Of a stretch of DNA of 64,000 nt, positions 5,583 through 50,500 are shown piece after piece. The translations under genes and the position numbers were made by a program. Under the pieces are notes generated by a model that did not search any database, was not told the DNA's origin, and saw nothing but the letters and a program-made list of their open reading frames with translations. Numbering within the stretch: position 1 is the first letter of the stretch; every line of letters begins with the position of its first letter. Source of the DNA: Mycosarcoma maydis (taxonomy: Eukaryota; Basidiomycota; Ustilaginomycetes; Ustilaginales); assembly GCF_000328475.2 (NCBI RefSeq), contig NC_026481.1, forward strand, positions 62,001 through 126,000. The letters run 5' to 3'.

Positions 5583-5927
5583 ATGCCGGACCGCCCAACG
5601 AATCGCCCCGCCGGCTCATCACCATAACAGCCAACCATCGTTGCCAGCTGCTGCCTACTATCGCATACAGCCTACACTCATTGCATGTTCATTCCGACAT
5701 CTGTATTTGTTCATTCATTCCCCGCATGGTCTCGAGTTTCGCTCATGTGCAATGGTGACTGCGTCTTTTTGTGCTTATTCGCTTCACTTGGTCTTAAGAG
5801 TCAAAGCGTTGACAGGTTGCTGAGCCAGCAAGCCTGTTACAAGAACACACAACCACATCGAGCTGTGATCCACGGCTGCTGAGTTCGCGGTCTAGACAAC
5901 TATGCCAAGCGATGCTTGTGTGCCATC

Positions 5928-5951
5928 ATTCATGATTCACGATTCGTGATT
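5928..5951. repeat. 7-bp motif array, ATT family
   Basis: Four ATT triplets with exact 7-bp periodicity, separated by CATG, CACG and CGTG in that order. The core flips orientation (CACG versus CGTG) while the flanking triplet does not, so this is not a simple tandem repeat of one heptamer nor a plain palindrome. Confidence 0.85.
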
Positions 5952-6894
5952 GCTGGGATGCGATTTCTGCAAAGCACTTGTACCATTGTCTCACGAGCTT
6001 GTTGACCCTGTCCGAGCAGCGAAATGAGAAGTCTGCCAGCGGCACGTTCTCTACCGCACAGAACGCACCGCCAAGCTCGTCATGCTTCCGGCAGGTTAGG
6101 AATCACGAATGTCGATAGCTTGCCATGCTCCTTATCTGCCAAAACGCAACGCAGTCCCGCTGGAACCGCGGCGAGCTCAGTCTTCTTCGGAGTCCCACGG
6201 AATAAGGGTAGCAGCGTGCAAAATCGGGTCCGGACAGCTTGCTTATGTCCCTTCGAATCACTAGTCACGAGTGTGGCTCGACTCCATTGGACCTTTCATC
6301 GTCGACTGAACCGACAATATTGACGCCAGCAGCTGCAATGTAGCACTGTTCCGGTAAACTGTTCATGTGCCTTCCAATCCGACAACAAAGCGCTACTCAG
6401 ACCGGCGATAGCAGCGAGGGTTGCCGGGTGAGACAAGCACGAGTCTCGCCAGCTGGCACCTGCTATTGCTTAGACGGTGCACACTATAACTGCATTCATG
6501 ATTAGCTTTACCGCGGCTGCAAATATCGTCCCACAGGCGACTCTTCGCCATCGACGGAACGTCCGTCGAGCAAAGAAGGACGCCTATAAGGTGCTCAGCC
6601 CAGCTTTAGAGATGGCTCTTGTCGAGCGCACCAGCCGTCGTTCCTGTAGCAGCTTTCCTGTGGCACAAACAAGAATCCTGAATACAGGCGTGTGCACAGC
6701 AAGTCTCAAGTGTGTTTGCTGGTCGCCATCAGCCCTTCGATATCTTAAGAGCGGCTACAGGTGTTCCTCCTGCGGCACGCCTCGACACGTTCGAATTTAT
6801 GATTACCGGTCTTGCTTTCTGAATAGCCACACTGTGGAGAGACACAGGTTTTACCCCTAAGCCACCCTCGTATTCCATCGTGCAAGCCTCACCG

Positions 6895-6918
6895 AGTCAT
6901 GAGTCATGAGTCATGAGT
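6895..6918. repeat. 7-bp motif array, AGT family
   Basis: Four AGT triplets separated by three CATG cores, period 7. It has the same architecture as the ATT arrays but a different triplet, showing that the triplet is site-specific rather than part of a fixed repeat unit. Confidence 0.85.
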
Positions 6919-7126
6919 GGCTCGGGTTGGTCCAGCCGGTGGGGCTTCGAAGCATGAAGTCACGAGTCGATACAGAGCAATTTGTTGAAGCCCAATTCAC
7001 GATTAGCAACGGAACTCGCGTCAGCCGTCGATTCATGATTCGTGATTGTCTGTCGTCACCATTCACGATTCATGATTGGTCTCTTTCACTTGTCAATCAC
7101 GAATCTCCCTCGTTGGTCTCTCTCGC

Positions 7127-7447
7127 TCGTTTGGCTGCTGGCCCTTAACTCACGACTCGTGACTCACTCGTCCATCTCACGTGCTCGCTCGCTCGTTGGC
7201 TTAGATTAATTTATTGTATCCATGATTGTATCGACAACAACTGTGGCGCATTGAGCTGTATGTTGGGACCGGTTGATTATGATTGATGGGGGGTGGTTGC
7301 TCATCGGAAGCCGCCCCAGCAACCACCCAAGGTAGCTCCCCCTGAAGAGTCACCCGAGCAAGGACCACCAGTTGATTATGATTCATGATTGATGGGGGGT
7401 GGTTCCGAAGACGACTTTTTTCCTTTTTTCACGATATATTTTAGATG
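7127..7447 (+). repeat. Dispersed repeat R, copy 1
   Basis: Shares about 320 bp of clear similarity with 16225-16555, including TTTGGCTGCTGGCCC, TTGGCTTAGATTAATTTATT, ACCGGTTGAT, GGGTGGTTGCTCATCG and the right-hand GGTGGTTCC...GACGA...TTTTTCC. Partial similarity to 12560-12715. It is probably a non-autonomous mobile-element or LTR fragment; I see no coding capacity. Relative to copy 2 it carries a 14-bp insertion of the ACT/CACG/ACT/CGTG/ACT type near 7150. Confidence 0.7.
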
Positions 7448-8178
7448 GGGCGGCCGGCCTCACAAAAACCTCACTGGCGAAGACGTTCTAGATCTCTTCG
7501 ATCTTGCCAGTATCGGTGTTCCGACACACGAGGAGTCATAGTTGGCTCCTCTAGTGCTGGAAGTCCTAAGCGAGGTCAGTAGCCTTGGAACGGTTGATGG
7601 TGCATTAACGATTGTGACTGCGTTCCAGAACCGACCTTGGAGGCACGACCTCATACACGATACCTCAAGGCACACAAAGTCCCGGGTAAGACTGACAGGC
7701 ATGAGGTGCGAGTCACGACTCCTGCAAGGCCCGAGAAGACCCCCTGCACTTCCTTCTCTGCGACAATCTCGCCCTTTCATGAAATGAGCTCAAGGTGTTC
7801 TTCGCAAGGTTGGTCACCTGAACAGAAACCAGCGCCTCACAACCTTCAGATCGAGTCTAAACGAGCCCAAGTCGTGAGTTCCTTCTGTCGATGGCAACTA
7901 CCTTCGTGCGAGGTTCGCAGCGCATGGGTCAGCGCAGACGCCGATCATTGACCACAATCGTGAATCCCCACCTCCTCCCCTTCGTCAACTACTCTTGACC
8001 TGAAAGCGACACATGATATCCTCATTTTATATAGTTACGTTATCACGAATCGTGAATAATGAATCATGAATTTATGACAAACAAGCCCACAGCATAAAAA
8101 GGCCTCGACTCGCGACTGTTTTGCCAGTCACGAGTCATGAGTTTGTAACGTTGGTGGCCACCAACGTCCTCTTCTTGG
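7448..8178. other. Intergenic, no gene recognised
   Basis: Between dispersed repeat R and LTR copy A. Frames around 7540-7790 stay open for 80-105 codons on both strands without any recognisable domain, and I do not call them. Motif arrays of the TCACGAATCGTGAAT kind occur at about 8043-8070. Confidence 0.5.
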
Positions 8179-8765
8179 TGTAGAATATTCCAATTCTTGG
8201 TGAATCTTTAGCGGGCGCTAGATGATCGAAGTCTCCCTTTCCTTAGAGAGGCGAGTTGGGACTGAGTAGTGGTCGAGAATGGTTTGGAATGTATTTGGAT
8301 AGTGTGAATTGGACAAGGGACTAACTACAAAGTGTGAGCGTTCCCTCTGTGTTTATGTACATGAGTCGACTGGAGTATCCTACATGAGCTTCTCCCTATA
8401 CGTCGCCTGCTCATACAACTGACTAGCTGTGGCCACAACTGGCCAGATGCGTGAGTCTGTTCTCTTTCAGGTTCTATCACTTGGTGCGAGTCGTGAGTCT
8501 GTAGCCAACGGCATATTCCCACAGTCGTCCAGCAACTTGTGTGAATTTACCCTGGGCTTCTCGCTACCAGCGCTATGTTATGGACCGGGTAAAACCCCGG
8601 CGTTCTGAGACACCTACTCGTACCCGTCCGGTGACTGAGAGGGTTGCGGACATTCCGCGAGCTTACTCGTTCCCATCCGGTCACTCATGTGTACCGTTTG
8701 GGTAACTGCAAGGGCTGCATGATTGTGGGCGATCAGACTAAACGCCAATCGTAGATATTCTAACA
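8179..8765 (-). mobile_element. Ty1/copia-type solo LTR, copy A (inverted)
   Basis: Read on the minus strand it begins TGTTAGAATATC and ends GGAATATTCTACA, so it has TG...CA termini with an imperfect inverted repeat. It aligns along its length to the 5' LTR of the copia insertion at 9726-10477 but lacks that copy's 77-bp GC-rich tandem. No internal region is attached on either side, so it is a solo LTR. The flanking pentamers (CTTGG and TAGAA) do not match, so the target duplication has been lost or one boundary is misplaced. It mostly lacks the 7-bp insertions and serves as a good reference for the unmodified sequence. Confidence 0.8.
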
Positions 8766-8963
8766 TAGAAGAACCGTCTTCTAACAAATCATGAGTATAT
8801 GCTACGGGCATAACATGCGTTACGCTGTGTCCCTAAAGCATTCATGATTGCGGGCATTAGTTTCTGATATTCGTGATTGTGTCTCGCTGCTTGAGGCGAC
8901 GATTTGCGATCCATTCGTGATTAAATCTATGCATACACGCTCATGATTCACGATTCGTAATTT

Positions 8964-9655
8964 TGTTAGAATATCTGCAATTCGTGATTGGAGCTTAGTC
9001 TGATCGTCCACAATCACGAATCGTAAATCATTCACGATTCATGATCCCTCCTGTCACCCGACCGGGACACATGAGTGACCAGACGGGAACGAGTCTATCC
9101 TCAACAATTTCATCTCCCCGACGGGAACGAGAACCACAAATTATCCTCAACAATCAAATTCACTGATTTACCCGACGGGAACGGGCAAGCCCGCGGTATG
9201 TCCGCAATCGTAAATATGCCCGCAAGTAACGTAGCTCACCAGAGTCGTGAGTCAAGAGTTTCCACGATTCATGTCACAGCGCTGGTAGTGAGAAGCCCAG
9301 AGTAGATTCACGATTCACACAAGTCGCTGGACGACTGTGGGAATATGCCGTTGGCTACAGACTCGCACCAAGTGGTGGAACCTGACAGATAACAGACTCA
9401 TGTATCTGGCCAGTTGTGGCCACGGCTAGTCAGCTGTATGAGGAGGCGACGTATAGGGAGAAACTCATGTAGGATACTCCAGTCAGCTCATGTACATAAA
9501 CACAGAGGCGCTCACACTTTGTAGTTAGTCCCTTGTCCAATTCACACTATCCAAATACATTCCAGACCATTCTCGACCACTACTCAGTCCCAACTCGCCT
9601 CTCTAAGGAAAGGGAGACTTCGATCATCTAGCGCCCGCTAAAGATTCACCAAAAT
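8964..9655 (+). mobile_element. Ty1/copia-type LTR, copy B (degraded)
   Basis: Starts TGTTAGAATATCTGCAATTC like copy C and can be followed through the shared blocks (GCGCTGGTAG...AGCCCAGAG, GGCCAGTTGTGGCCA, CTCTCTAAGGAAAGGGAG) to about 9655, where similarity ends. It carries two precise 7-bp insertions relative to copies A and C: near 8980 (ATT to ATT-CGTG-ATT) and at 9307-9316 (ATT to ATT-CACG-ATT). Confidence 0.75.
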
Positions 9656-9720
9656 CTCAATAATCCACCCCTTTTCAGGGAACATGTCGGAGAAAAACAT
9701 GATTCACGATTGCACGAGGA

Positions 9721-9725
9721 CAGCC
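9721..9725 (+). repeat. Target-site duplication, left (CAGCC)
   Basis: The five bases before the 5' LTR read CAGCC and recur directly after the 3' LTR at 11894-11898. Five base pairs is the usual target duplication for Ty1/copia elements. Confidence 0.8.
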
Positions 9726-10477
9726 TGTTAGAATATCTACGATTGGCGTTTAGTCTGATCGCCCACAATCATGCAACCCTTGCAGTAACCTAACCGGTAT
9801 ACACGAGTGACCGGACGGGAACGAGTAGGTGTCTCAGTACGCGCGCTATACGCGCGCGACACGCACTCAATACACCAGCGGTACGTCCGCGGTACGCGTG
9901 CGATACACTCGCAGTACGCGCGCCATACGCGCGCGACACGCGCTCAATGCACCCGCAGTACGTCCGCGGTACGCGTGCGATACACTCGCAGTACGCGCGC
10001 CATACGCGCGCGACACGCGCTCAATGCACCCGCAGTACGACCGCGGTACGCGCGCAAGTATAGTAACTCGCCAGAGTTTCCCCGCTTCACAACATAGCGC
10101 TGGTAGCGAGAAGCCCAGAGTAGATTCACACAAGTCGCTGGACGACTGTGGGAACACGCCGTTGGCTACAGACTCGTACCAAGTGGAAGAACCTGAGGGA
10201 GAACAGACTCATGCATCTGGCCAGTTGTGGCCACAGCTAGTCAGTTGTATGAGGAGCTGACGTATAGGGAGAAGCTCATGTAGGATACTCCAGTCGACTC
10301 ATGTACATAAATACAGAGGGAACGCTCACACTTTGTAGTTAGTCCCTTGTCCAATTTACACTATCCAAATACATCCCAAACCATTCTCGACCCTACTCAG
10401 TCCCAACTCGCCTCTCTAAGGAAAGGGAGACTTCGATCATCCAGCGCCCGCTAAGGATTCACCGAGAATATTGAATA
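9726..10477 (+). repeat. 5' LTR of the copia insertion (copy C)
   Basis: Starts TGTTAGAATATC and ends AATATTGAATA. The right end is fixed by the target duplication following the 3' LTR, giving TG...TA rather than TG...CA termini. It includes a GC-rich 77-bp tandem repeat that copies A, B and D lack. It should hold the element's promoter and polyadenylation signals; I cannot pinpoint them. Confidence 0.85.
9835..10060. repeat. 77-bp tandem repeat inside the LTR
   Basis: About 2.9 copies with a 77-bp period: the marker CAGTACGCGCGC recurs at 9835, 9912 and 9989. The units are rich in ACGCGCG and CCGCGGTACGCG, far more GC-rich than the rest of the LTR. The frames across it stay open only because of its composition and are not genes. 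Confidence 0.9.
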
Positions 10478-10489
10478 GGTTATGAGCCC
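10478..10489 (+). promoter_or_regulatory. Primer-binding site (half-tRNA type), overlapping the gag start
   Basis: The 12 bases right after the 5' LTR, GGTTATGAGCCC, are the complement of the initiator-Met tRNA anticodon region (GGGCTCATAACC). Copia of Drosophila and Ty5 of yeast prime from an internal cut in this tRNA, so this element probably does too. The ATG within the site (10482) is the gag start codon. Confidence 0.75.
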
Positions 10490-11671
10490 AATCAATGATC
10501 AAGACCTTGCCTTCTCCTCTATGAGGGTTGGACTACCCAAACGGCTGATGTCCTCGGAGGACTACTTCGAATGGGCGACCTCGATGCAAAATGTCCTTTC
10601 GTGCAAAAACGCGAACTTATGGTTCATCATCGAGGGACGACTCGTCAAACCCGAGGAACATCTGGGTGAGGGAGACCTTAAGGAAGTGAAGCTCGGCAAC
10701 AAATTCCCTACTAAGGATATCGCCGAGTACTATCGAGCTGACGTGGAAGCACGCAGCATACTCCTCAACTCCCTTGGACCCGCCCAACAAGCCCTGGTCG
10801 ATACGTCAACTACTGCTCGAAAAGTCTGGGAGAAACTTCGCGAGAACTACGCGCAGAACGTTGCTCAGCAGATTGCTTCACTCGAAGCGCAGTTGGCGAA
10901 CCTCTACCAAGGAGATGACAAGATCAACGTCTACTCCTACAAGTTGGAGACTATCTGCAGGAAACTTGACCACGTGGATGCTCCGGTTAGCGGACTTCGC
11001 AAACTGAGAACCTTTCTGCGTGGCCTCGGTCCCCAGCACGATGTCTGGCGAAAGATCTTCTACTTCAACACTCGTCTCTTCTTCCAGAAGGAAGGAGATT
11101 CCGACGAAACAGCCAACAAGAAGGCCCTGGAAGACTACGAAATTGCCGTCAGCACGATTATGGCTGAAGAAGCCGAGCAAAAGTCTTTCCGGCGCCAATA
11201 CCCAGCTCGGGCCATGCAAGCCCAGTCGCAGGCCTGTCAAAAAGGGCAAAGACAAATTCTGCACTAACTGCAAGAGGGATAACCATAACCTCGAAGACTG
11301 CTTCATGGAAGGAGGTCCCAAACACAAGGATCGCACCGAGAAGCAAAAGCAGAAGAAAACCAAGAAAGTGACGGGAAACCTGGTATCAAGTCGACTCCGA
11401 CGAGATGAATCTGTGTCTCCACGTGTCCACACCCGATGACAACGTCGCTCCCCAAAATGAAACCTGGATCATTGACTCTGGCGCAAGCCGACACATGACC
11501 GGCGACAAGACCCTCTTCTCGACGTACGGACCATCTCCTGTCCAGGAGGTATTCGTCGCTGACAACAGAGGAGTTCCGGTTGCTGGCATGGGCAACGTCA
11601 GACTGGTGATGAGTAACTCGAAGGGATCGCGGAAGTCGATTACACTTCAAGATGTCCTCCACGTTCCAGGA
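10482..11671 (+). pseudogene. Copia gag and start of protease, two frameshifts, cut by gap
   Basis: The first frame runs 10482-11267 (261 codons) and is a copia-type Gag (UBN2-like: DYFEWATSMQNVL, ARKVWEKLRENYA, LGPQHDVW). Around 11215-11235 the coding signal moves to the +1 frame, which carries the zinc knuckle CTNCKRDNHNLEDC (C-x2-C-x4-H-x4-C). Near 11378 it moves again to the frame with the retropepsin motif WIIDSGASRHMTGD, which stays open to the N gap. Copia elements normally encode one continuous polyprotein, so two shifts suggest an inactivated copy or sequencing errors rather than programmed frameshifting. Integrase and reverse transcriptase are not visible in this copy. Confidence 0.85.
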
Positions 11672-11771
11672 NNNNNNNNNNNNNNNNNNNNNNNNNNNNN
11701 NNNNNNNNNNNNNNNNNNNNNNNNNNNNNNNNNNNNNNNNNNNNNNNNNNNNNNNNNNNNNNNNNNNNNNN
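11672..11771. other. Assembly gap (100 N)
   Basis: Exactly 100 undetermined bases, the conventional placeholder for a gap of unknown size. It replaces the body of the copia element; flanking LTR sequence shows that several kilobases are probably missing. Confidence 0.98.
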
Positions 11772-11893
11772 TTACACTATCCAAATACATCCCAAACCAT
11801 TCTCGACCCTACTCAGTCCCAACTCGCCTCTCTAAGGAAAGGGAGACTTCGATCATCCAGCGCCCGCTAAGGATTCACCGAGAATATTGAATA
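11772..11893 (+). repeat. 3' LTR end of the copia insertion
   Basis: As read by eye, 122 bp identical to 10356-10477, immediately after the gap and ending AATATTGAATA, followed by the right target duplication CAGCC. Confidence 0.9.
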
Positions 11894-11898
11894 CAGCC
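11894..11898 (+). repeat. Target-site duplication, right (CAGCC)
   Basis: Matches the pentamer at 9721-9725 and fixes the right end of the element at 11893. Confidence 0.8.
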
Positions 11899-12559
11899 AC
11901 AATCACGAATCGTGAATCATGTAATCACGAATAAATGCGCGATCAACTGTATTCATGATTCGTGATTGCAGTTTTAGTGAATTTTAGCAAGCGCTATATG
12001 ATCGAAGTCTCCCTTTCCTTAGAGAGGCGATTTGGGACTCACAGACTGAGTTGGGCGATAATCACGAATCACGAATGATTTGGAATGTATGTGCGTTTTG
12101 GACAGTCACGAGTCACGAGTGATTTCTGGACGAGGGACTCGCGACTAACTACAAGTGTGGGTCTACCTGTGTTTATTTATGTACATGTATCCTGCATGCG
12201 ATGAGCTTCTACCCATACGTCGGCTCCTCATACAACTGACTCACGACTAGCTGTGGCCACAATTGGCCAGATGCGTGAGTCTGTTCTCTTTCACGTTTCA
12301 GGTTCTATCACTCACAGACCCACGATTGCAATAGCCGGAAAGAAAGGAGTTCGCACAACTGATCAGTTCTGGTCACGGCTGGTCAGATGTACGAGGTGCT
12401 AATCACGAATCACGAATGTATAGAGATCAGCTCATGGGCGATACTACGGTGAGCTCATATACACAAACCAGGAGAAATCATGAATATATGTGCTTTGTAA
12501 ATTTCCTCGTCAACACAGTTTAAGTTTATATAAAGTATATACATTACTAACATTCGTGA

Positions 12560-12715
12560 TTCGTGACTGGCCGATGAGCTATTGAGAGGATGGTCGTCCT
12601 CGAAACCGCCCTAGGAGCCACCTGCCAGGGGTGCTTGCTGCGAGAAGCCATCTAGGAGCCGCACAGGTGGTTCGGTGGTTCCTAGGACGACTTTTTCCTT
12701 TTTTACGACGTGACT
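12560..12715 (+). repeat. Dispersed repeat R, partial copy 3
   Basis: Ends in GGTGGTTCCTAGGACGAC followed by TTTTTCC like copies 1 and 2, with CCGCCCTAGGAGCCACC-type blocks upstream. It is nested inside LTR copy D. Confidence 0.55.
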
Positions 12716-13008
12716 CGTGACTTGATGCGGGTCTGTAGCCAACGGTATATTCGTGATTCCCACAGCGAGTCGTCCAGCGACTTGTGTGAATTTACTCTGG
12801 GCTTCTCGCTACCAGCGCTGTGTCATGAACCGTGTAAAATCTGACGAGCTACGTTACTCGTCAGCGTATTCGTGATTGCGGACATAACGTGGGCTGACCC
12901 GTTCCCACCCGATCACTCGCGACTTTTGTGTTTCCGTCGGGTAAATGAAATTGTTGCGGACTAACTCGCTCCCGTCTGGTCACTCGTGTGTTCCAGTCGG
13001 GTAACCTA

Positions 13009-13039
13009 AATCATGAATCATGAATGACGAATCGTGAAT
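13009..13039. repeat. 7-bp motif array, AAT family, inside LTR copy D
   Basis: Five AAT triplets separated by CATG, CATG, GACG and CGTG at exact 7-bp spacing. The corresponding place in LTR copy A has a single triplet next to GATTGTGG. Confidence 0.85.
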
Positions 13040-13083
13040 GATTGTGGACGATCAGACTAAACGCCAATCGCAGATATTCTAAA

Positions 13084-14963
13084 AATCATGAATCGTGAAT
13101 GTCCCTCACAAGAAATTGAAATAGTGGGTGGCTTCGTTGGTAGAATTCAAGAATAATTTTTCCGTTTTTTTGTAAATGTTTTTTCACCTGTGTGTACTTT
13201 CGTCCACAAAATTTGCTGTATCGTAATCACGAATCATGGTTTAGTCACAAGTCGTGAGTCGTGAGTGGAACCACACATCAGTAGCCGATCAACGAACCTG
13301 TCAGCAACCCATAACTCCAACTGATTCGGTGTATGATGCGGGAAGGTCCGGCTACACAGCAGGGGAAATTCTCGCACTCTTTGCTTTGTAGAAATCATTC
13401 GTGATTCCTAGATTTTGTGTGGGCTCCAACGCTTCGGGTCATCATGACCTTGCATGACTGCGTCGTGAACATAATTGTGAATCAGAATCACGAATCTGCC
13501 AGAGCGTGAGAGATTTGCTGCGTTGAATGCCATCCGACGTCGTTTTTGCGTTGAACCTGTGTGAGGGTTACGGCCATCCTCTCATTAGCTTGTCGGCCAG
13601 TCGCATTGGAGATCACTCACAAGACATGGTATTGGAGCAAAACAATAATCACGAATGAATGCATGTATTTGTAGCCTAGCAATTCGAGAAGGTACTCATG
13701 ACTCACGACTGTTGCAAGAGAGTTAATAACAAAGCCAGCAGCTTGCGGGAGCATCGATCACAGAGGAGAAGTACGTACCCATGACTGAAAGCGCAGCGGA
13801 TCTCAAACATCCGAAGGAGGTCGATAGTCACGAGTGGAGGACCAACGAGATGTTGTGGTCCTTCCATACCGAGACCAACACTCGTGACTATGCCACCGAG
13901 TCCAACAGTGGGCAGGCCAGCTTCTGCCGGATGTAGCATCAGGGCTAGACCAAGACGAGCAGACTTGAAGACGAAGCCAATCATGAATTGTCAGCGGATA
14001 GATGTATGTCCGCATGATACCTTGCTGATCGAGAGACGGCAGCATGCACAAACTGGCTCAGCGCGAGGCTGCTGCGAAGTGTAGAGAGGGAGGATCGGCA
14101 TGCTGCCGCTGCGGGTGTGGTGCTGCGGATACTGCCAACGCTGTTGATACTGCTGATGCTGTGCGTGCTGCTGCTGCTGCCGACGTTGCTGATACTGACG
14201 CTGCTGGAGCCACACCAACAGATCTTGTCCTCGCCTCTTCTGCTAAGCGTCGATACTCTCTCATTCGTGATTGTCTCGTGCCATCTCCACTGCTCGTAAG
14301 TGAAGGTCTTGCCACCCTCACCACACTGGTCGCATCTATAGAGGCGATGTTTGTGGCTCCATTGAGAGCGCGATAAGCTGCTCATGGTGATGGCGAGGTG
14401 AGGGGTGAGTGGGACAGACTGGCAGCGGGAGCAACGGCAGACTAAGAGAGTCGGAAAGTGAGAGGCATCGGAGGTGAGCGACGTTGACGATGGCAGGCAA
14501 GAATTCTTTCAGCAGGCAGACAACGGAGCAACAACAACGCGACTGGACGAGAGCATAGACACCAGAGCACCAGAGCAGGAGCAGCGTGAGGACGCCTGAT
14601 ACAAAGGTGCTGCAATCGACGGTCAATCTACGTCGGTTGATACTGCGAAGCTGCTGCGACTGAAAAGGAGTGTTGAGAGAAAGGTTGTCGCTGCTGGGAT
14701 CAAAGAAGGAGTGGACAGGCCGAGCGCACAAGACTGCTGTTCGCCGACAGACAGACTACCACACATGGGTGTTCCCGGCGTGTCAAGCCCGGGGGCGCGA
14801 TACCTCTTGTGTGTCGAAGAGGCCTGTCGGTACAGTATTCCTGTTCCAAGGGCTGTACGGTCGTGCCGCTCTCAATGACAGCCAGCTAACACAGCGACTA
14901 ACTCTGCGAAGTGAGGGGGCCCTCTGTGCGAGGGTTGTCGAAGTTCGGGGCTTTAACTCTAGG
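13084..14963. other. Intergenic, no firm gene
   Basis: Contains motif arrays and low-complexity CTG/GCT stretches (14110-14215) that open frames on both strands. A minus frame near 14270-14385 reads CDQC...HET and superficially resembles a zinc finger, but has one half-site only and a 7-bp motif inside it; I do not call it. No other support for a gene. Confidence 0.45.
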
Positions 14964-15474
14964 TCATGCTGCCCACAAATACAAGAAATCAAGCCACAGA
15001 GCGACCAACTCTGGCAGCGGGGGCGGCTGGATGTGGACGATAGTGTCAATCAGATCTTGTATGCTAGACTGTGACTCGGGCTGACTCGACTGCCAGCTGC
15101 CACGGGTAGCTTGGCTGGACTCGGCCCGGTTGATGGAGTCGGATACGGCATCCTCTCCAATAGTGCTCAGCGACGAGTCTCTCATGAGGCCAATCGGATC
15201 GAGGCTTTCTCTCTCCTCTTCCGACTCTGTTTTGTTGCTTCGGCGTGCTCTGGCCTGTCGAGTGTGCCTACTGACACCATCTTGCTTTCTCTTTTGGTTT
15301 CGACGTTGTACCATCTTCCTCAACGCAAAAGCTAATACGATCTTATTCATGAATGGCGGTGGACGGTGGCATGAAGGAGGAAAGTACAGCGAATCATGAA
15401 TCTTGGCACCAGCGGCCAAGGGAAGCGCAGAAAAAGGATAAGGCTTCTCACGAAACGGCTCAGCTATCAACGGC
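14964..15474 (-). CDS. Hypothetical protein, weak candidate
   Basis: An open frame of about 169 codons starting at an ATG (MPLIAEPFREKPYPF...) and ending LDFLYLWAA. It has a basic patch (KMVQRRNQKRKQ, RARRSNKTESEEE) and a Ser/Gln-rich stretch, with no domain I recognise. The frame continues upstream of the ATG without a stop. Part of it (KIHDS) is the translation of a 7-bp insertion motif (ATT-CATG-ATT), which suggests either that the motif entered a gene or that the frame is accidental. The surrounding region is repeat-rich, so I lean towards a decayed or spurious gene. Confidence 0.2.
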
Positions 15475-16224
15475 ATGGTCGAAATCGACGTGCTGAAAGT
15501 CCTTCTCAATTGCTTTGAACGGCAGACGATGCAGCAGTAAAGGTGAGTCAGACGGTGAGTCAGACATTTGGGCACTACAAGACTGTCTAGGCGGGGTTGC
15601 TGAATCATCGCAACTGGGGAAGAGGAATAGGCCCAAGCGCTCCAGGAGATCGAAAGTTTTCAAGAGATCCGCTCGCCATTCATCCGTCGCCTGGCTGAAA
15701 AAAGGTGCTTGCCAATTTGTGAATGGTGCGACGAATTCTTGTTTTGTCGACCACACCCACTCGCCTGCGCTAGCTGTGTGACTTGTCGCACTTGTCATTG
15801 CCACCCGAGACCACTCCAAAGCAGGATCCGAGCCCGCAGAATTGGCGCACTGGCAAATATGTCTACAGGCTGACTCATGACTGCATTCGGGGTTTGTTGA
15901 GATTCACGATTTGGTCATGAAATTTTATTAGAGACTCGTGACTTTTGTCAAGCATCAAGTCGCGAGTTACTTGCGTCACTGCGTCACGATCGTGAATCAC
16001 GAATTTCAATCGTGCATCATGACTGGCCACAAAATCCCCTTCGTCAACTGCCTAGTTGGGTAAGCATCATCCTATTTATGATTCCTTGTCGCCAGCTTTC
16101 CCGCACATCATTGTAACCTGCTAACCCGTCCCATTCATCTCGCTGGTCTCGCTCGCTCGTTGGTCTCTTTCACTCGTCGATGTCACTCATCGATGTCACT
16201 CGTTGGTCTCACTCACTCTTTGAG
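15475..16224. other. Intergenic, no firm gene
   Basis: A minus frame of about 120 codons at 15460-15819 has protein-like composition (FTNWQAPFFSQATDEWRADL) but no start context, splice partner or domain. Motif arrays at 15900-16010 (TCACGATCGTGAATCACGAA kind) and TCACTCGTTGGTCTC repeats near 16140-16230 precede dispersed repeat R. Confidence 0.4.
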
Positions 16225-16555
16225 CTCGCTCACTCGTTTGGCTGCTGGCCCTTTATTCACTCGTCCATCTCACTTGCTCACTCGCTCGTTGGCTTAGATT
16301 AATTTATTATATTGCATTGACAACAACAGTGGTGTTTTGAGCTGCATGCTGGAACCGGTTGATTGATGGAGGGTGGTTGCTCATCGTGCGTCGGAAGCTA
16401 CCCCAGCAACCGCCCAGGGTGGCTCCTCCTGAAGAGCCACCCGAGGAAGCTACCCCGATCTAGGCTCCTCCTCAGGTGGCTTTCAATAAGCAAACACCAT
16501 GGGTGGTTGCCGGAGTGGTTCCGAGGACGAATTTTTCCTTTTTTCAGGATGTGAA
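16225..16555 (+). repeat. Dispersed repeat R, copy 2
   Basis: Homologous to 7127-7447 over most of its length. It has the uninterrupted GGCCCTTTATTCACTCGTCC where copy 1 has a 14-bp motif insertion. It abuts a decayed copia pol fragment, so R may be part of a retroelement's terminal region; that link is inference. Confidence 0.7.
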
Positions 16556-46860: not shown

Positions 46861-47486
46861 TAAGGCTGAGCTACATCTGACGGCAATGACTCGTCATTCA
46901 CACAGGCTGGTGAGCGGGACAACTACCACTTTTACTCTGGCGCGTGTGTTCCCCGTCCTGTACTGTACTCGTGGTGGAAGGCCACATGTGACCTCCTCGC
47001 TAGTCACGCTGTGAGTACCAAGCCGGAGAGTGTTGGCTCAGCTTTCAACAGCAGGCAAGGAGCCGCGAAGGAGAAACTCATCGTTTGACAGCTCGTCCAA
47101 AGTTTGTGTCGGGATCGGTACAGCACAGCTGTCCAAACGCAGTGACCAAGCAACTTGGCATAGTTCCACCGTTTCAGTCCCAAGGCACCACTCTAAGAAG
47201 TCAACTCAGAGCCGCTGGTCAAGTCGAGATGGGACTGTATGTTTGTTCACAGTACATCACAGTTGGTGCGCCGCCAATTCGCCAATTGGTGCTCAACTCT
47301 AACCGTCAATAATTTGTGAATGTGAAGGATGACCATTTTACTTGATGCGCTGGTCTCTCTCATTTCAGCCCCGCTCTGTGATGCCTGACAGGTCTCCTGG
47401 CGCTAAAGCAAACGCGGAGATTTAATATTTCAATCTCAGTCGTAATTTGCGCTTGTCTGCGCGTTCCCCCGCATTCACGATTCACG

Positions 47487-47523: not shown

Positions 47524-50500
47524 TTTTTGTGACTCACAATCGTGAATTGTGGTGGTGTGCCATCTGTTGAGACAATTACGAATGGGTTGACCCGCTTCTT
47601 TGGCTTGCCCCAACTTCCCGTCTTGGTCGTCGGAGATCCAATGCATCGTCTGGCTAAGTACGGCACACGGCTTCAGCAGCACATCATCACGACTCACGAA
47701 TCGATAATCATGAATACTGCTCGCCCTGTTCTCGAGCCGATCAACACACAAACTCGAATTCAGCCCAGCCCAGGGGAGATGTTTGCACACACATGTCGAC
47801 CAAACAAAGCCAAGCTGTGCTTTTCCCTTTATCCTTGGCTTTGCACTCCGCATTCGCTAGTTCAACAAGGCCCGCACTCCGCTCTTCCTGATTTCAGACC
47901 CACCTCTCTGCTCCTTGGTTTTGGCGGCTCTGACCCTGCCAATCATCTCGCGGTTCCGCCCATTGTCATCAGATGTAGACCAAACATCAACGCCAGTCAG
48001 GCCGAAGACTGTGGTCAGATCCCGAAATCATGATCGAAAGTTTCAGGTCGGTTCCGCTTTCGTGGCTTCACGATGGTAAAAAGCGACGCACTGCAATTAA
48101 TCGTCACCGCAGAACCGATTCCAGCTGTGGACCGTCGGGTGAGCTTTTACCCCTTGCACATCAGGAACTAGAAGCAAGGAGCTCGCATCAGAGCTAGTCA
48201 CGTCTTGCGTTTGCCGCATCAGTCACGAGTCGGCATGCGAGAATCTCGAATGAGCACAATCGACGGGAAAGCGGAAAGGCGAGTTTATGCATCCAAACTC
48301 GCGAGGGCTTTGCGCAGCTTTCCCGTTGCGTTTTTATGGAGCTAGCTAAGCGATGTTGCCGAACCGACGTTAAGTTATAAAAGTATAAAGCAGACTTGGG
48401 CGAGCTTGGACGGTTGCTGACCGTAGATGGGACCCTGGCGGCCAAAAATCCATACGTTGCCATATGAGGCTGAACGACTCGACTGATCGGGCGAATTTCT
48501 CTTGCTCGAGGCTGCCTCGAAGTGGCGATCAAGTCATCGTATCAGAACCAGCAATTGTATGGTCGTCCAGGAGATCGCAGCTGGTAATACAAAGTCCGTG
48601 TCATTCCATTACGGCAGCTCCTCTTGGCGCGAGTAATTCTGGTCTAGGCTGTGCTTCGAATCAGCAGGGGTATACGCGAGACTCTGTTGAACCTCGACAC
48701 AAAGAGGAAATATCCCCCACCTCGGTCGTTCTGAATCACATGAATTCAACTAGTCCACTGATTGCCGTCACTACCAATGGCTCGTTCCACCCAGAAACAA
48801 GGCTCGCCAAGAACCGAGGCACATCTGAAGCTTCGGCTCTAGTTTGTTCCAAGACGAGACATTGTCAGTGGTAAGAACAGCCATCCGGTCTAGCCCTCGC
48901 TTGGCTATTCGGGTAGCACAAAGGCGCGAGGCGGGATCTGCTCTGAGCTTTGACACGTTGTTACAATTCGCAATCGTGAAGGTTTGAAACGCAACACCCA
49001 ATCACGAATGCGGACCTTTCAAAACTCACGACTCCCTTGGCAAAACTATTCCAAGACGAAAACTTGTCGGTAGGTGCACAAGCAGGTGCACATAGTCACG
49101 AGATGATCAAACGCCGTTGCTTTGTCATGTACGACAATGACCGAAAGCGAAAGAGGTGCAAAGCATGCTCAATCAGATGTACGACAGGTGAGCAGTGACG
49201 AGACAAAGCCGGCGTATCGTTCTCCCCATAGTGGATCATAACGCTCTGTACGGCGCGGGGCGTTCTGTCACAGTGTCTCGAGGTTGATTCGAGTTTGTCT
49301 AGCCGCCAGTGCCGGCGCTGGAGAATCTCGCCAAAGATTTACTATGCAGGCAAGCCATTCCGTAGGCGCTGCAGAGCCGTTTTAGCCGATCTAGCTTCAA
49401 GGCGACTCGCACGTGCAGGTTCCTGAAAGTCAGATTCGTTCACACGATTCACGATTCGTTTGCCACGACACGCAAATCGCGAATTAGTGTGACACTGTTA
49501 AGGACCGATACTCTCACATATCTTTCTTCGACGCACGAGGCGTGAAACGTGAAGTCTACAAATCGCCGATCTGAGTCTAAGCTTTGTAATTTTTTCCACG
49601 ATGGGAAACTTCAAGTATTTATCGATAAACTGAAGGAAATTCAACCAACCTCGTAACAGACGCTCTCACAGGCGGATCTTTCCTTGGTGTTCCGTGTTTT
49701 TGTCAACGAAATCACAGTGTGGAAGCAATCGCCGCCGATTCGTGATTCGTGATTGTTTGCTCTGCTGCAACCTGTTGCTCGTCTCTCGCGTCTCAGTCAT
49801 CAAGCATGTCGGCCAAGCACGCAGCGATTGCGCTTTAAGCCTTGGCAGCGCAAAGCCACAGACTTGTGGTTGCTCATGCTGCGAAAAGAAAGAGTCACAA
49901 GTCAAGAGTCTGACTCAAGCAAGTACGAACTGCGACTTAGCGGTCTGTCCACGTTCTGTTGGGAGGCAGCCTCATGAAGCGTGTGCCTTGATCGGTACGG
50001 CGGGATTCGGAACGAGGCTTGTAAGTCGGACAGACATTCACGATATTTTGGAAATGGATTCTGTGATTCACGAATTCACCGCGCAAGAAGATTCGCAAGC
50101 TCGAAATACAAACCTTTGACGATTCACGATTCAATTTGGCTGACCAATACAAATCCGCGCAACCTCTGCGTCGCGAAGTTTCGAAATTTTGGTTGGCGGC
50201 GGTCGCTGTTTTTCCCTCTGCCCAGTTCCGGTCCTGAACGCTTCTTACCATTCGTGATTGCAATCGTGCATCACATCCTGGCTCGCAGTCGCAGTCACAG
50301 TCACGAGTGATTCACGATTCGTGATTGAGAGAAAGACGAAAATTTGCGGCGAGAGCACCCGCACCACACTGGAGCGCCTTACATGGAACCAATCGTGAAT
50401 CCATCTTGTCACAGAGTGTTGTGACAAATGAGCGTTGCTCCAAGTCAGTCACGAATGTGTGCGTGTGTGTGTGCGTGTTTCCGATGAGATCGACAGCAGA

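Follow-up and report, generated by a model that had tools for sequence, protein, structure and literature searches.

Short insertions at ANT targets in the Ustilago maydis genome as probable footprints of excised DNA transposons

An LTR family with filled and empty sites

The window analysed here is a stretch of 64,000 bp (G000:C4:62001-126000) of the U. maydis genome, which comprises 19,664,356 bp in 27 contigs. It includes an LTR-rich stretch in which a copia-type gag frame (PF14223) lies about 0.7 kb upstream of an LTR that we call copy D. This copy was aligned with A, B and C, three other LTR copies of the window, and with another eight pieces (L051-L058) that rank second to ninth among the 171 matches of the family. 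The elements concerned are as follows:

5900..16300, no strand: LTR-rich stretch holding 79 of the 143 ANT-CRYG-ANT units in the window, 24 of the 79 having CATG or CGCG as core
8173..8768, plus strand: LTR copy A, reference for empty sites
9236..9662, minus strand: LTR copy B, reference for empty sites, with a filled site of its own at 9306 (ATT-CACG-ATT)
10081..10480, minus strand: LTR copy C, reference for empty sites
11975..13083, plus strand: LTR copy D, 171 family matches in the genome, 14 putative footprint sites scored, including one CACAG and one TTT site

Filled sites differ from empty ones by a unit in which the 3-bp target, A-N-T, is repeated on the far side of a 4-bp core (CACG in either orientation). 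Below, counts of filled and empty copies cover only those copies whose flanks scored well enough at the given site (no site is assigned a strand):

12037..12047: ACT-CACAG-ACT, 8-bp insertion of a second class; five of five comparable copies empty
12060..12076: AAT-CACG-AAT-CACG-AAT, 14-bp insertion; five of five comparable copies empty
12104..12120: AGT-CACG-AGT-CACG-AGT; a single AGT in A, B and C by alignment, though the flanks there could not be scored
12137..12146: ACT-CGCG-ACT; five of five comparable copies empty
12239..12248: ACT-CACG-ACT; empty in A, B and C (3), filled in L051-L054 (4)
12289..12298: TTT-CACG-TTT, 7-bp insertion at a non-ANT target; empty in A, B and C, filled in L051-L054
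12749..12758: ATT-CGTG-ATT; empty in A, B and C (3), filled in L057 and L058 (2)
12915..12924: ACT-CGCG-ACT; empty in the one comparable copy (L058)
13009..13039: AAT-CATG-AAT-CATG-AAT-GACG-AAT-CGTG-AAT; four units (28 bp) longer than L058, the sole comparable copy

Among the remaining sites, those at 12401 and 12476 are filled in all comparable copies (4/4 and 5/5), the one at 12552 is filled in four and empty in one, and those at 12713 and 12868 are empty in the single comparable copy, with a near tie of 0.58 to 0.61 at 12713. Several relatives carry variants of their own. At 12104, L051 is filled, with CACACTGTG as core where D has its first CACG (AGT-CACACTGTG-AGT), and L052, scored empty by its flanks, has one unit there in the alignment; at 12239, L052 has one further unit with the core CAAG. 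The TTT site can alternatively be parsed as TTTCA-CG-TTTCA.

Copy D and its nearest copy, L052, aligned over 593 bases, show 18 substitutions and nine gaps, five of which are of the footprint type (8, 14, 7 and 7 bp in D; 7 bp in L052) and four of which measure 1, 3, 5 and 5 bp. The alignment of D with L051 covers 697 bases, with 39 substitutions and 14 gaps; three of the gaps are plain footprints and one changes a core. Units thus stand against substitutions at 6 to 18 (D/L052) and at about 4-5 to 39 (D/L051), and these LTR pairs hint that the insertion rate may be high. The initial annotation of copy D, which had listed a series of such insertions, placed them correctly in the window sequence. 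The alignment of these LTR copies yielded filled and empty sites differing by 7n-bp units, together with an 8-bp unit and with ordinary indels of 1, 3, 4, 5 and 12 bp. Its statement that a 3+4 division is the only parse fitting all events was too strong, since ACT-CACAG-ACT divides as 3+5, the TTT target is off the rule, and ordinary indels also occur.

The copies also differ on a larger scale. About 390 bp of D at window 12311-12720 (gaps of 323 and 70 bp) are missing in A and largely in B and mostly aligned in L051, L053, L054 and L056, which is possibly the mark of another LTR subfamily. Between two aligned pieces of copy C lies a CGCGCG-rich 77-bp tandem array of 2.8 copies (window 9835-10052), an 18-mer of which was not found in copy A.

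Target, core and core variants

Genome-wide, the pattern ANTCACGANT occurs 27,565 times (13,811 + 13,754 on the two strands) as against 262 times backwards (127 + 135); equality of the two triplets was not a condition of this or the other genome-wide pattern counts, and a hand count found it in 93 of 100 sites among the matches listed. A 264-kb sample, consisting of the window and 20 ten-kb stretches picked before inspection (1.3% of the genome), was used for finer statistics. Here, ANT-CACG or ANT-CGTG is followed by the identical triplet in 315 of 506 cases, compared with 220 of 11,191 for non-CRYG cores, and in a further 35 cases ANT stands on both sides with a differing middle base. When cores of 4-39 bp with CR..YG ends behind ANT were ranked in a 200-kb sample, lengths 4 (216/448), 11 (56/352), 18 (31/291) and 25 (19/285) came out on top, followed weakly by 12 (15/267).

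CACG and CGTG are one duplex in opposite orientations, and the 315 equal-triplet sites are divided almost evenly between them (163 and 152). Relative to the triplet, core orientation is 130:100 for AAT/ATT (p = 0.056) and 41:44 for AGT/ACT. The duplication ends at about three bases, with match runs that are sometimes slightly longer: the base left of the site equals the last core base, G, in 28.3% of cases (background 30.1%), and the base right of it equals the first core base, C, in 36.8% (background 31.6%), a slight rise. Runs of period-7 matches number 124, 95, 38, 16 and 9 for lengths 3-7, and 6, 3 and 9 for lengths 8-10. AAT/ATT triplets are favoured over ACT/AGT, making up 214 of the 307 filled sites where the background is about even, and filled sites tend mildly to have C in front and G behind. 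Besides TTT, AAG is a minor exception to the ANT rule (15 seen, 1.25 expected).

These figures uphold the earlier proposal that 3 bp of target are duplicated around a shared core and that no fixed heptamer is copied around. The triplet does match the local target, as had been claimed, but it is not free, being nearly always ANT. The ANT target, the CACAG class and the scarcity of units in coding DNA go beyond what the initial annotation had recorded. Of the four cores that had been listed (CACG, CGTG, CATG and CGCG), CATG and CGCG are truly frequent in the LTR cluster; in the genome at large there is really one core, CACG/CGTG, together with products of CpG decay. The pattern ANTCATGANT counts 1,768 genome-wide (42 backwards), and ANTCACAANT with its complement (CACA + TGTG) counts 3,023 (259 backwards), again with triplet equality not required; since CATG is the rarer of the two, it lies within what CpG decay of CACG would give.

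The LTR-rich stretch departs from this. It contains 20 CATG, 4 CGCG and 2 CACA + TGTG cores, compared with 13, 3 and 24 in the 200-kb sample (p = 3e-5 and 3e-6), and CATG/CGCG relate to the other cores as 24:55 in the cluster and 16:200 elsewhere (p = 3e-6), the limits of the stretch having been set after the pattern was seen. CpG decay as the sole source of CATG in the cluster was therefore rejected (CATG 20 against CACA + TGTG 2), also because CpG differences between the aligned LTRs show little bias by neighbouring base (A 13, T 9, G 19, C 5 in nine pooled, non-independent pairs with D). Among the matches listed on contig 1, at least 13 CATG sites, one with unequal triplets, lie at C1:672,824-678,489, where other LTR matches are also present.

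A scan of core lengths 1-14 between equal ANT triplets brought out, apart from CACG-type cores, the 5-bp core CACAG (12/43). Other high ratios rest on about four sites each, partly from repeated DNA, and the 3-bp cores CAC and GCC are raised only about 2-fold. In the 264-kb sample, 12 of 13 ANT-CACAG/CTGTG-ANT sites have equal triplets. Genome-wide, ANT-CACAG-ANT occurs 1,177 times (560 + 617) as against 56 backwards (30 + 26). A hand count of 100 rows among the matches listed, four or five of them from one local array, gave 82 with equal triplets. ACT/AGT makes up 49 of these 82, compared with 85 of the 315 CACG sites (p = 8e-8), a difference in triplet preference that suggests a second family. 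Two sites in the window belong here:

47002..47016, plus strand: composite putative footprint AGT-CACGCTGTG-AGT, read as both kinds of end retained
50058..50068, no strand: ATT-CTGTG-ATT, putative footprint of the second class

The composite core CACGCTGTG, which joins CACG and CTGTG, has three exact sites in the genome including the one at window 47002, all three with equal triplets; with one mismatch allowed there are 54 (18 backwards), many of them open to other readings. At L067:1833-1860, ATT-TCGTG units with an 8-bp period stand next to a normal ATTCACGATT unit.

Probable excision footprints and competing explanations

We consider it highly probable that the units are excision footprints of cut-and-paste DNA transposons, an interpretation in which we infer the agent, the lengths of the overhangs and the origin of the cores from element ends. 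The element would insert at A-N-T by a cut staggered by 3 nt and would thereby duplicate ANT. On leaving, it would be cut 4 nt inside its 5' ends, so that each flank would retain a 3' overhang CACG, and end joining would keep one of them, giving ANT-CACG-ANT or ANT-CGTG-ANT. Later rounds would stack further units of the same triplet with an independently oriented core, because each footprint offers two fresh ANT targets. A second, rarer family with 5'-CACAG ends would do likewise and leave a 5-nt core. By analogy, the chemistry may well be of the Tc1/mariner type, with a Tc1/mariner-superfamily-like transposase, although we would stop just short of calling this probable.

As expected of footprints, a duplicated target flanks a short remnant, and the remnant occurs in both orientations. 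There is one constant core in either orientation, as in footprints of the Sleeping Beauty type, and it would correspond to one 3' overhang. The TA duplication of that type of Tc1/mariner element is replaced here by ANT. TTT and AAG targets depart from the ANT rule and count against the interpretation. CACTA/EnSpm elements likewise make a 3-bp duplication and have ends starting with CAC; an ANT-only target is, to our knowledge, not typical of them. The unusual uniformity of the scars also speaks against footprints, given that Tc1/mariner footprints are described as ranging from 2 to 4 bp and the ZB element as leaving 0-3 bp.

The search for a source element, which turned up none with CACG or CACAG ends, covered 298,420 bases plus the window at the sequence level (about 2% of the genome) and the rest by pattern or family. 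A scan of 59 sequences for inverted repeats (same ANT, 30-6000 bp apart, 11 of 12 matches) found no CACG-ended element; of its 20 hits, 14 were made by the heptamer, four partly so (one place, overlapping loci L021-L024), and two were unrelated. ANT-CACG without a second ANT is barely above similar words, and therefore few unexcised ends can exist. Profile matches in the genome number four for DDE_3, 13 for DDE_1 and three for DDE_4, and CACG ends were absent in the three transposase regions inspected (two of the four DDE_3, one of the three DDE_4), whose ends are of other types or not distinct. The DDE_3 genes at C10 and C17 (L067 and L068) were rejected as sources on this ground, and the DDE_4 element in L045 was set aside on account of its ends, which are by eye of the AGAGGTTTTGG type. 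PF02992 and PF18759, used as profiles for a CACTA-type transposase, gave no matches in the genome, the controls of that search being silent as well. The families searched were DDE_3, DDE_1, DDE_4, Transposase_21 and Plavaka.

The DDE_3 element in L068 provides a filled/empty pair of its own, as its right inverted repeat carries ATTCACGATT and its left one a single ATT. Its gene (310-aa frame) lies at L068:73-1415 between inverted repeats starting with CGGGCTAGATCATC; alternatively, the element may be an insertion at TA within the palindrome CGGGCTAGCCCG.

Direct insertion of a 4-bp CACG duplex into ANT broken with a 3-nt stagger, a process needing no transposon as intermediate, would agree with the extreme uniformity of the core and with the lack of a surviving element in the DNA examined. 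We regard it as improbable, as the 5-bp CACAG class with its different triplet preference and the composite core both fit element ends better.

Spread of a heptanucleotide minisatellite through replication slippage, with single units as seeds, is to be judged by the arrays. Single units make up 254 of the 300 arrays in the 264-kb sample. In two-unit arrays the triplet is kept and the core is the same in 14 of 36, where 13.8 are expected under independence; cores in doublets are thus drawn independently, which argues for repeated insertion and not for slippage. Over all array pairs the core is the same in 32 of 59 (23.4 expected), and equal cores are favoured in arrays of three or more, so that slippage seems to add units there; long arrays of one core do exist, for example at C1:609103-609168. 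The preponderance of single units, the independent doublet cores (at variance with the uniform unit and fractional copy ends of a minisatellite) and a triplet that follows the local site nevertheless make slippage a quite unlikely origin of the units. Outside long ORFs 307 of 5,908 ANT are filled, i.e. 5.2% per ANT for a first insertion (decayed cores counted), and 16% of filled sites have a further unit, corresponding to 8.0% per ANT copy; the arrays are close to the expectation of random re-insertion, with a local excess of about 1.5-fold.

Arrays of AATCACG in viral contigs (eight IMG/VR loci, L059-L066) offer a contrast with respect to slippage, being single-core runs of which several end off the ANT boundary. 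They were taken to be unrelated tandem repeats. The arrays by which these loci were picked contain 31 of their 36 units, a second array in L063 being counted with arrays of three or more, and the other five comprise a doublet in L060 and three units that stand alone. A unit in the opposite orientation is present in two of the loci, and four of the contigs (L059, L062, L064 and L065) share the same flanks around the array.

The units are almost absent from coding sequence. With ATG ORFs of at least 200 codons as a stand-in for annotated genes, 5 of 5,570 ANT are filled inside them, compared with the 307 of 5,908 elsewhere (p = 4e-82), and none of the window's 143 units falls in its eight long ORFs (22,332 bases). 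Long ORFs nearly free of the motif could mean that selection maintains TCACGA in intergenic DNA as a functional binding site. This explanation is very improbable: it gives no account of the identical flanking triplets of four kinds, of the filled and empty paralogs in the LTRs, or of the independent doublets, and the depletion fits purging from genes, because a 7-bp insertion shifts the frame. Least credible, to the point of being negligible, is the idea that motif-free copies are deletion derivatives, which gained no support in the comparisons made; six sites are empty in 3-5 LTR copies with one ANT left (ancestral states here rest on paralogs within one genome) and the roughly 27,500 ANT-CACG-ANT sites show equal triplets in 93 of 100 among the matches listed.

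Returning to excision footprints, the hybrid CATG and CGCG cores of the LTR cluster would fit base-by-base repair of an annealed pair of CACG and CGTG overhangs. Extending this, we tentatively propose, as a scenario that is on balance doubtful, that at least two ANT-targeting families made tens of thousands of insertions, of which nearly all were excised to leave scars of 4- or 5-nt overhangs and no resident element, and that in the LTR cluster the heteroduplex overhang was resolved base by base to CATG or CGCG.

Comparison with known systems and implications

The initial annotation had known of no description of such insertions. Numerous 10-bp repeats in U. maydis are, however, mentioned in PMC4081816, where they are suggested to be footprints of transposable elements, with reference to Laurie et al. 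(2012) and Schirawski et al. (2010). They resemble our units in their length, which is that of ANT+CACG+ANT, in their scatter across the genome, and in the footprint reading; the relevant passage of PMC4081816 differs in giving no sequence, ANT target, CACAG class, re-insertion rates or core statistics. Matched by length and description, ANTCACGANT is likely to be that 10-bp repeat.

A mechanistic parallel comes from Sleeping Beauty, whose footprints are reported as TACAGTA/TACTGTA, the same as its 3' overhangs; PMC520745 prints the two canonical forms as ATGTCAT and ATGACAT, which are TACTGTA and TACAGTA backwards. As reported for this Tc1/mariner element, a target duplication flanks one 3' overhang in either orientation. 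The target there is TA and the core has 3 nt, whereas the smut scars have an ANT target and a core of 4 or 5 nt; with ANT substituted for TA, and CACG or CACAG for CAG, the smut scars follow from the same scheme. A 3-bp ANT target-site duplication is also described, in PMC4724952 and PMC12242761, for the TBEs of Oxytricha, which are Tc1/mariner-type elements. Their inverted repeats are given as starting with CAAAACCCC, in contrast to the smut core CACG, and the title of a work cited there calls their developmental excision precise, in which case no scar of this kind would remain.

Within the open-licence literature, no paper was found for 14-mers of the motif, the titles and abstracts surveyed yielded no description of the ANT rule or the CACAG class, and an ANT target rule was seen in print, as far as the accessible texts go, only for ciliate TBEs. 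A U. maydis primer in PMC7358432 contains the same motif. The accessible text of PMC8120014, on 22 U. maydis isolates, does not mention such indels, and its alignment filter excludes any window in which indels are shared. Unless the primary papers contain them, four points are apparently new: the restriction to ANT targets, the class with a CACAG core, the arithmetic of re-insertion and the excess of CATG and CGCG in the LTR cluster.

If the more far-reaching scenario of at least two nearly completely excised families is true, the insertions would be due either to an element that is extrachromosomal or almost erases itself, or to a transposase tamed by the host and still adding 7 bp at a time to intergenic DNA. 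CACG annealed over CGTG would form a heteroduplex with two A.C mismatches, and the scars would be a genome-wide record of local mismatch repair. Putative footprint sequence amounts to about 1% of the genome (27,565 × 7 bp). The target and both cores of the scars are defined, their rate can be measured, and they provide a countable insertion clock for intergenic DNA. The missing elements are predicted to have 5'-CACG and 5'-CACAG ends, and their scars may show how mismatch repair acts at double-strand breaks across regions of the genome.
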